Part shown: in pieces, positions 51,944 to 54,106 of the stretch
How positions within the stretch are numbered: position 1 is the stretch's first letter
Layout: the number at the start of each line of letters is the position of its first letter
DNA from: Bacillota bacterium
Lineage (GTDB): Bacteria > Bacillota > SHA-98 > Ch115 > JABLXJ01
Reading direction: 5' to 3'
Assembly (NCBI GenBank): GCA_013178125.1
Contig: JABLXJ010000010.1
Span: 62,001-126,000 of the forward strand
DNA length: 64,000 nt
Translations under genes and position numbers: made by a program
The notes under the pieces: generated by a model
Database searches by the model: none
Told to the model about the DNA's origin: nothing
What the model saw: the letters and a program-made list of their open reading frames with translations, nothing else

Positions 51944-52273
51944 TTACCTATAATCCTTAAGGAGTTCTTCTACGAAAAGAATGGACAGGTAATCTCGCAC
52001 GCCATTCAAAAGGCGATAAACCGAAACGAATTCTCCCTCGATTTTGTAAAAAATGAGGTAAACGCCGCAGGCAAGGAAGCGGTAATCCGTTTTTATATTG
52101 ATTTTAGCGCTGAGTGAGGCTCCCATCTCGGGGAAATCAGCCAGCTTTTCTATCTTGGAATATATGGTATCTCTTATTTTCGCGGCTGCTTCGGGATTGT
52201 TCTCGGTGATGTAGGCTTTTATTTCCTGCACATCGGCAATCGCCACAGGGTTGATTCTGATTTTGAATTTCAC
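51944..52273 (-). CDS. ParE/RelE-family toxin
   Basis: A 109-residue protein of the ParE/RelE superfamily. N-terminal strand and helix: KFKIRINPVAIADVQEIKAY then ITENNPEAAAKIRDTIYSKI. Next come the conserved FPEMGASL turn (residues ~52-59), YRFLACGVYLIFYKIEGEFV, and VYRLLNGVRDYLSIL. This is the ParE-type order (P-x-M-G, then Y-R-x-L, then Y-x-I-x-R). Whether it acts on gyrase or on ribosomes cannot be told. It follows the antitoxin gene by two bases. Lower GC than the genes upstream fits an acquired module. Confidence 0.88.
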   Translation of the reverse strand: MKFKIRINPVAIADVQEIKAYITENNPEAAAKIRDTIYSKIEKLADFPEMGASLSAKINIKTDYRFLACGVYLIFYKIEGEFVSVYRLLNGVRDYLSILFVEELLKDYR

Positions 52274-52275
52274 GC

Positions 52276-52524
52276 TCAGACCTCCAATGCTTTCTTGAGG
52301 TCATCAAGTGATTCCCATTCCTCTCCTGTTTTAATCGCATCTTCTGCCTCGGAGAGCTTTGACAACAGCTTAATCACCGCCTGCTGTTTTTCGTATTCCT
52401 GTATATCCAAAAGAACATAGCGGCCTCTGCCGTTTTTTGTCAAAAACACGGGCTCCCCAACATGGCAAGAGCGGAGAACCTCGTTATAGTTTCTTAAGTC
52501 TGAAACCGGTTTAATGTTTGGCAT
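52276..52524 (-). CDS. Phd/YefM-family antitoxin
   Basis: An 82-residue antitoxin. The N-terminal Phd/YefM fold is clear: MPNIKPVSDLRNYNEVLRSC then GEPVFLTKNGRGRYVLLDIQ and EYEKQQAVIKLLSKL. The C-terminal tail (EDAIKTGEEWESLDDLKKAL) is the toxin-binding arm. ATG 52524 is chosen because GGGGGTG lies six bases upstream; ATG 52539 has no site. The pair is likely autoregulated from the TATAAT element just upstream. Confidence 0.88.
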   Translation of the reverse strand: MPNIKPVSDLRNYNEVLRSCHVGEPVFLTKNGRGRYVLLDIQEYEKQQAVIKLLSKLSEAEDAIKTGEEWESLDDLKKALEV

Positions 52525-52553
52525 TCTTAACACCCCCATGATTTGCTGTTATT

Positions 52554-52564: not shown

Positions 52565-52801
52565 GAAGTTCATAAAATAAAACGTCAGATTTCACAGCAG
52601 GTCATAAGCTTAACCCATCTGGATGATAACTGCGAGGTAGTTCGTAATGGATATCGTAAGCTTAAGATAAGCGCCAGGTTTGGTGTTATCAACATAGAAC
52701 GTCAGGTCGCCTTCTGCAAGACTTGCGGGAAGGACTTCATCCCCCTCAACAGTGTCCTTCCCGAGCATAATGGGATGGTCATAACAAAGGGCGTAGGATA
52801 G
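52565..52801 (+). pseudogene. Transposase N-terminal remnant (UPF0236/ISKra4-like)
   Basis: A fragment of about 78 codons reads NGYRKLKISARFGVINIERQ then VAFCKTCGKDFIPLNSVL. This resembles the N-terminal zinc-binding part of ISKra4/UPF0236-type transposases (R-K-x-x-T-x-F-G ... C-x2-C-G-x-x-F-x-P-L-D). No catalytic domain follows; the frame stops at 52801 and no continuation is seen in other frames. It overlaps the antitoxin promoter region at its start. The match is by eye. Confidence 0.45.
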
Positions 52802-52912
52802 GATAGACTGCGAATACAATGGAATGGCATTGTGGAGAAGGCAAACGACCCTTAATATCAGCTTCAACAGCTTCATCCGCCTTCATCCGCCGCACACGAT
52901 GTCTGCCACCGG

Positions 52913-53168
52913 CATCGTCCATCAGGAACAGTGCTAACTATTAACACTGTCGGTCGGGAACAGTGCTGGCCATTAGCGCCGTCTATCAGGAATAGTGCTA
53001 GCCATTAACACTGTCCATCGGGAATAGTGCTGACCATTAGCATCGTACGCCGCGGATAGTGTTAGCCATTAGCATCATCCGTCAGGAACAATGTTAGCTA
53101 TTGGCATTGTCAGTTGAGAATAGTATCGACTATTAGCATTGTCCGCCAGGAACAGCGTTGGCCATCAG
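52913..53168 (+). repeat. Tandem array of eight diverged 32-bp units
   Basis: Eight units of exactly 32 bases, starting CATCGTCCATCAGGAACAGT in the first, each containing a GGAACAGTGCTAACTATTAA-like core. Units differ from each other at roughly 15-35% of positions but never in length. In unit 1 ACAGTG can pair with CACTGT at the head of unit 2, and in unit 6 ACAATG with CATTGT, a compensated change. There are no unique spacers, so it is not a CRISPR array, and 32 is not a multiple of three, so it is not a protein repeat. Confidence 0.85.
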
Positions 53169-53252
53169 CATCATTATCCATCCCAGCGTTATGCGCGCTA
53201 ATAATTTTTTGCTGGACAAAGGAGGAATCAGGCGGGCTACGTCGTATATATA

Positions 53253-53329: not shown

Positions 53330-54106
53330 ATGGGTAACGAGCTACGTTTGTGTAAGGTACCACCTATTCCACTATACTACCAACTCAAGGAGATCATTCG
53401 TCAACAAATTGAGGACGGCATTTATAAACCTGGTGACGCCATCCCCAACGAGACGGAGCTTCAAGAGAAATATAAGCTCAGTCGATCCACGGTAAGGAAG
53501 GCTGTGGAGGAACTGGTTGCTGATGGGTTGCTTATAAAGCGACAAGGGAAGGGGACATTTGTCCAAAAACCCAAGATTACTCAGAACCTTAACCTTATTA
53601 CAAGTTTTGGCGAAACGTTGGTTGCCAGGGGCTTAACACCGAAGATCTCGAATGTAGAGGTGGAGGAGATTCCTGCGCCTGCGAAGATAGCACAAATGCT
53701 AGGACTGAACGTTGGAGACCCTGTTATACATATATTTCGCCTTTATCTAGCAGACGACGATCCAATAGCTTTAATGACCAATTATCTAATACCTCAACTC
53801 GTTCCGGGTCTTTCTCGGGAGGATTTATGTAAGTACTCTCTTTATCAAATCCTTGAACACAAATACGACTTGACATTAGCCACAGCAGATGAGACCATGG
53901 AGGCTCGATGTGCAGACGAATATGAGGCCGATATGCTTAATGTAGTAAAAGGCGCCCCGCTTCTTCATGTAACTCGTGTCACATACTCTTTGGATGGGTC
54001 CCCCATAGAAGTGGCGATAGTTACCTCGCGGGCAGACAGATATAGTTACTCGATCAAATTAAGTGGCCGCGAGAAAAGCAAGCGACTCATCGGGATATCT
54101 AAATAG
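53330..54106 (+). CDS. GntR-family regulator, HutC subfamily (UTRA domain)
   Basis: A 258-residue repressor. Winged helix-turn-helix: IPLYYQLKEIIRQQIEDGIY then GDAIPNETELQEKYKLSRST, VRKAVEELVADGLLIKRQGK (residues ~12-75). The C-terminal UTRA ligand domain has IHIFRLYLADDDPIALMTNY, then VTRVTYSLDGSPIEVAIVTS. HutC/FarR-type proteins sense sugars, amino acids or related metabolites. It begins a more AT-rich operon for sugar or sugar-acid use and probably controls it, with the pathway substrate or a phosphorylated intermediate as ligand. AAGGGAG lies six bases before the ATG. Confidence 0.94.
   Translation: MGNELRLCKVPPIPLYYQLKEIIRQQIEDGIYKPGDAIPNETELQEKYKLSRSTVRKAVEELVADGLLIKRQGKGTFVQKPKITQNLNLITSFGETLVARGLTPKISNVEVEEIPAPAKIAQMLGLNVGDPVIHIFRLYLADDDPIALMTNYLIPQLVPGLSREDLCKYSLYQILEHKYDLTLATADETMEARCADEYEADMLNVVKGAPLLHVTRVTYSLDGSPIEVAIVTSRADRYSYSIKLSGREKSKRLIGISK

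Follow-up and report, generated by a model that had tools for sequence, protein, structure and literature searches.

Arrays of 32-bp dyad-symmetric units in an ISKra4-like MITE and outside it as candidate sites for a DNA-binding protein

The tandem array at 52896-53174 of the window, the 64,000-nucleotide stretch of a Bacillota genome (G000) analyzed here, is carried as cargo by a MITE-type element, a non-autonomous relic-size derivative of an ISKra4-like insertion sequence (IS). About twenty such arrays were found across two related bacteria, this one and G003, which belongs to another family of the same order. With evenly balanced confidence, we read them as arrays of dyad-symmetric sites for a putative DNA-binding protein, hitch-hiking in the MITE; we infer this binder, as well as its function, from the symmetry, the spacing and the substitution pattern of the units.

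The window array and its mobile carrier

The array consists of nine 23-bp quasi-palindromes with 9-bp linkers, each unit starting exactly 32 bp after the preceding one (Table 1), and Tandem Repeats Finder reported 32/64/96-bp periods at 52912-53174. The initial annotation had described eight units of exactly 32 bp, which proved to be the same array in a shifted phase. A comparison of the window array with an array elsewhere in the genome (C6), without any trained model, gave E = 2.3e-47, so the array is not a product of chance.

Besides the window copy, four other MITE-borne arrays were identified in the genome (C6, C11, C1 and C42). Elements of this kind have IS-like terminal inverted repeats, about 25 bp long, enclosing a minisatellite whose unit number ranges from about 1.5 to 9. 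The copies C6, C11, C1 and C42 and the full IS are all bounded by CTTAGCRCGCATAAS....GGGATRR; both ends are intact in C6 and C11, one end is degenerate in C1 and one end was recognised in C42. The terminal pattern had 29 matches versus 2 in a reversed control. The full IS is located at C16:49824-51527, is bounded by the MITE-type inverted repeat and encodes a transposase of at least 461 amino acids that matches UPF0236 (Pfam) above the cut-off. Its nearest curated family is ISKra4 (NF033572) at 111.7 bits, under the cut-off of 205, and for this reason the element is named ISKra4-like only. The C16 copy (L033/L055) interrupts a cbiM-looking gene (cobalt transport) and shows an 8-bp target duplication, AAAGATTT (8/8). 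A MITE copy in G001, a genome of the same genus, has a near-perfect 8-bp duplication, ACTTGTTC/ACTTGTTT (7/8), and no target duplication is visible at the C6, C11, C1 and window copies. G001 has an empty site corresponding to C42: the homology ends precisely at CTTAG, where the inverted repeat has its outer edge. All three features that define a MITE were thus found: inverted-repeat ends in common with a resident IS, target duplication and presence/absence at an orthologous site. The window copy retains only its right inverted repeat and ends at 53202; directly upstream of its array, a transposase gene with an internal deletion occupies 52574-52850.

Table 1. Features of the array, its carrier and the adjoining operon (window coordinates)
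Feature	Coordinates	Strand	Remarks
Remnant, N-terminal part of ISKra4-like transposase gene	52574..52795	+	Translation ...RFGVINIERQVAFCKTCGKDFIPLNSVLPEHNGMVITKG; 54% identical to C16 transposase residues 45-118, E = 9.3e-24
Short remnant resembling C-terminal part of ISKra4-like transposase	52803..52850	+	Same frame reads QWNGIVEKAND, cf. C16 transposase YNGNGVVEKAND; compared by eye
MITE left arm, truncated, left inverted repeat missing	52852..52895	+	ATATCAGCTTCA and CTTCATCCGCCG...CACACGATG in common with left arms at C6, C11, C1
Unit 1 (23-bp quasi-palindrome)	52896..52918	.	Conserved first unit in MITE copies
Unit 2 (23-bp quasi-palindrome)	52928..52950	.	
Unit 3 (23-bp quasi-palindrome)	52960..52982	.	
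Unit 4 (23-bp quasi-palindrome)	52992..53014	.	
Unit 5 (23-bp quasi-palindrome)	53024..53046	.	
Unit 6 (23-bp quasi-palindrome)	53056..53078	.	
Unit 7 (23-bp quasi-palindrome)	53088..53110	.	
Unit 8 (23-bp quasi-palindrome)	53120..53142	.	
Unit 9 (23-bp quasi-palindrome)	53152..53174	.	
Right terminal inverted repeat of MITE	53175..53202	-	Reverse complement ATTAGCGCGCATAACGCTGGGATG...; fits GCRCGCATAAS....GGGATRR common to IS and other MITE copies
GntR/UTRA regulator, first gene of sugar operon (context only)	53330..54106	+	PF00392 and PF07702

Short MITEs (about 90-130 bp) at L030/L050, L045/L046 and L047 carry these inverted repeats too but lack 32-bp units, and some of them are flanked by near-perfect A-rich 8-bp duplications. 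A 74-residue transposase fragment in G003 (C12:87213-87434, L142) is identical to one in the window's genome, and its occurrence in two different families points to an IS derivative that was recently transferred horizontally. Between a metallo-beta-lactamase-fold gene and the window MITE there is a RelE/ParE-like 109-amino acid ORF with an adjoining Phd-like antitoxin ORF (51944-52530, minus strand), both named from sequence only.

The initial annotation correctly placed the array ahead of a sugar operon: it lies 155-435 bp upstream of the GntR/UTRA regulator gene, which is followed by genes for an aldehyde dehydrogenase, a sugar kinase, a KDPG-type aldolase and a sugar ABC transporter. This proximity is what would suggest an operator array for the adjacent regulator, controlling the operon. 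Such a role is extremely improbable, since 17 other arrays with these units adjoin unrelated genes and the window copy is inside a MITE. Because this copy sits within a transposable element, the operon context is incidental, and its place there is probably an accident of transposition. For several members of the ISKra4 group (Mutator superfamily of transposons), insertion upstream of sigma-A promoters is reported (PMC3942029). The resident transposase is nearest to this group, its score below the curated cut-off being the difference, and the G001 MITE ends just 2 bp before TTGTTT-17-TATAAT, so a position ahead of an operon is unsurprising.

Distribution of the arrays

The genome-wide search for the unit that the initial annotation had proposed revealed seven arrays in the window's genome: those of the window, C6 (7 units plus an eighth shifted by 6 bp), C11 (3), C1 (3), C42 (2), C13 (9) and C2 (7). 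With a sequence-only profile built from three units, G003 proved to have about 12 array regions and G001 a remnant of only about 1.5 units, from which it follows that the array is dispensable, whereas G002 and the remaining genomes of the class had no arrays. Solitary units are nearly absent, the pattern matches falling within arrays with at most one outside, which is the control level.

Within 250 bp of C2, C13 and all the G003 arrays, the search for inverted repeats gave only isolated matches with 4-5 mismatches, and these arrays share no flanks save for one pair of paralogous genes. The gaps between genes that hold them are of all three kinds, convergent, divergent and tandem, and the neighbouring genes are unrelated. 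It is partly shown here, and otherwise suggested, that the 32-bp unit is a free-standing array element too and not merely MITE cargo. Across the class, arrays and transposase were both found in G000 and G003 only; this co-occurrence may reflect nothing but horizontal transfer, as there are two genomes and they share the identical transposase fragment. Two candidate partner genes were discarded: a 246-amino acid protein that has no Pfam match and is encoded next to two G003 arrays is also present in an array-less genome, and an Mrr-type ATPase gene beside two arrays has other copies without a nearby array. Some free-standing G003 arrays (L097, L102, L103, L104 and L105) are near toxin-antitoxin-like, nucleotidyltransferase/HEPN-like or restriction genes.

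Spacing, substitution pattern and competing readings

In a detection blind to spacing that covered 114 units in 18 arrays of the two families, 93 of the 97 distances between neighbouring units were 32 bp, the others being 31, 31, 38 and 39, while units within an array are on average only 60-83% identical. The selection on geometry that the initial annotation had suspected is supported by these figures; of the free variation in copy number and spacing that it had set against its reading, the former was observed between copies but the spacing is constant. Whether within MITEs or outside them, the 23-mer obeys RYRRYRYYRRYNRYYRRYRYYRY at 96-98% in either genome, a figure somewhat favoured by the collection of the units with a profile trained on such units; as the arrays are contiguous, few internal units can have been missed. 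The near-fixed bases are A1, T5 and G6 with their mirror images C18, A19 and T23, and the two bases permitted at many other positions are nearly equal in frequency (position 2, C 0.50/T 0.49; position 10, A 0.53/G 0.45; position 11, C 0.49/T 0.49). The transition to transversion counts within arrays were 1429:139 (about 10:1) at variable arm positions and 725:452 in linkers. Since such pairwise counts are non-independent, the contrast was rechecked with disjoint neighbouring pairs and persisted (arms 196:20 versus linkers 120:72, p = 8e-12). A genome-wide transition bias was ruled out as the cause, because four-fold degenerate sites in orthologues of the window's genome and its relatives gave 169:150 (about 1.1:1).

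The initial annotation had offered a multi-site protein array or an RNA of repeated hairpins as the object of selection, and of these the first fits better. The palindromic units and the folding of the window plus strand, better than that of shuffled sequences (z = -3.7), would agree with a transcribed RNA acting through repeated hairpins, but such folding is expected from a palindromic consensus and the minus strand gave z = -1.1. The compensated change from ACAGTG/CACTGT to ACAATG/CATTGT that had been pointed out is present in the sequence; nevertheless, it is one combination that independent transitions in both arms produce, and over all units no compensatory changes were detected beyond shuffles. 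Watson-Crick arm pairs totalled 688 against 688.9 expected from within-array shuffles, and the arm covariation score was 0.276 against 0.270. Without covariation, and with A-C cells as common as G-T, RNA hairpins are unsupported. The arrays show no preferred orientation to genes and match no Rfam family at threshold, a single sub-threshold match to a viral stem-loop being attributed to chance. Pairing between neighbouring units was likewise discarded, as it showed no covariation (shift 1, z = -2.3). On covariation and strand symmetry the RNA reading was rejected, and we regard it as very improbable. Wobble-tolerant hairpins or cruciforms in the DNA of either strand, serving as recognition sites for a transposase or nuclease as in REP/BIME with RAYT, would account for arm pairs that are Watson-Crick, G-T or A-C, with purine-purine and pyrimidine-pyrimidine combinations rare. 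This too is improbable, considering that any preference for Watson-Crick over wobble pairs is no greater than in shuffles and that the Y1/RAYT transposase (PF01797), present in five control genomes, is absent from G000-G003; the same absence eliminated a REP/RAYT system.

A selfish minisatellite without binding function, passive cargo that expands by slippage in MITEs and elsewhere, is a possible but somewhat unlikely reading, its pattern being the outcome of history and unit exchange. It is consistent with the free variation in unit number among MITE copies (about 1.5, 2, 3, 3, 7-8 and 9), with the location of arrays in intergenic gaps next to unrelated genes and with the existence of similar minisatellite-in-MITE elements. 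Copy number and distribution are accounted for in this way, but the substitution pattern is not: arm transitions are saturated with few transversions where linkers accept both, and indels are nearly absent at such a low identity between units. Dyad symmetry, the 32-bp period, the near-absence of solitary units and a constraint on purine/pyrimidine only argue for a multi-site array at the DNA level, and dyad-symmetric sites, fixed helical phase and sequence constraint are what a protein array should show. Each unit keeps its purine/pyrimidine pattern and a few bases, the other positions drifting by transitions independently in the two arms, and the unit centres stay 32 bp apart, about three helical turns; under the protein-array reading, this would seat the protein on one face of the helix. 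The putative binder, a dimer, might sense purines rather than particular bases through purine N7 contacts or step flexibility. Purely purine/pyrimidine degeneracy is, to our knowledge, rare in binding sites, which makes this recognition mode speculative. Chromosome structuring, a barrier or gene control are candidate roles for the bound protein; an ordinary repressor fits poorly with units that almost never occur singly. More tentatively, and rather unlikely in this specific form, the arrays could be docking platforms on which a putative protein reads the purine/pyrimidine pattern, one per 32 bp on one DNA face, captured and spread by the transposable element.

Relation to known systems

Judging from our comparison, the MITE layer appears most like BrickBuilt of Porphyromonas gingivalis (PMC4596501) and the BOX elements of Streptococcus pneumoniae (PMC3049150). 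BrickBuilt is a minisatellite within a MITE, with leader and tail segments and inverted-repeat ends matching a resident IS, and is always intergenic with a variable unit number (PMC4596501). The tandem repeat, the IS-matching ends, the intergenic location and the variable unit number are shared, but BrickBuilt has 23-nt units without spacers and IS5-type ends and is confined to Porphyromonas (PMC4596501), whereas the arrays described here have 32-bp dyad-symmetric units and ISKra4-like ends, and their units are found outside the MITE as well. BOX elements likewise combine fixed end modules with a variable number of tandem middle modules; their sequence is unrelated, and no free-standing palindrome array of fixed period is described there for boxB (PMC3049150). 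The array layer would work most like REP/BIME clusters, some of which bind gyrase, IHF or DNA polymerase I (PMC2817692, PMC3733652), in that both consist of regularly spaced intergenic palindromic units. It is not one of them: a RAYT transposase is absent, the units carry no invariant GTAG or CGTC tag and hardly ever occur alone, and there are about 7-13 arrays where REP/BIME copies number in the hundreds.

MITEs with an internal minisatellite were already known; here the unit also exists apart from the MITE in a second family and shows a measurable constraint: the spacing is fixed at 32 bp, and purines and pyrimidines are conserved as classes, transitions being free. If a protein is behind the pattern, this would be an unusual mode of DNA recognition and a case of a mobile element bringing multi-site arrays to new promoters. 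The CIRCE/HrcA operator has the form TTAGCACTC-N9-GAGTGCTAA, with 11 bp between TTAGCACT and AGTGCTAA; it was rejected because in these arrays 13 bp separate TTAGCACT and AGTGCTAA of neighbouring units and the half-sites vary.

The substitution pattern can serve as a search signature for similar arrays elsewhere. An earlier, stricter genome pattern gave no match, and the unit pattern found nothing in viral contigs, plasmids and phages. Among about 85,000 genomes, a 45-bit pattern had two matches outside the order; one was an unrelated simple repeat, the other a short cluster of palindromes on a plasmid-like contig. This contig (L107:6140-6270), binned as Geobacteraceae and carrying relaxase- and ParA-like ORFs, has four palindromes ACGGTGCTC...GAGCACCGT spaced by 32, 32 and 27 bp, whose arms fit the purine/pyrimidine pattern of the arrays and change in a compensated way.
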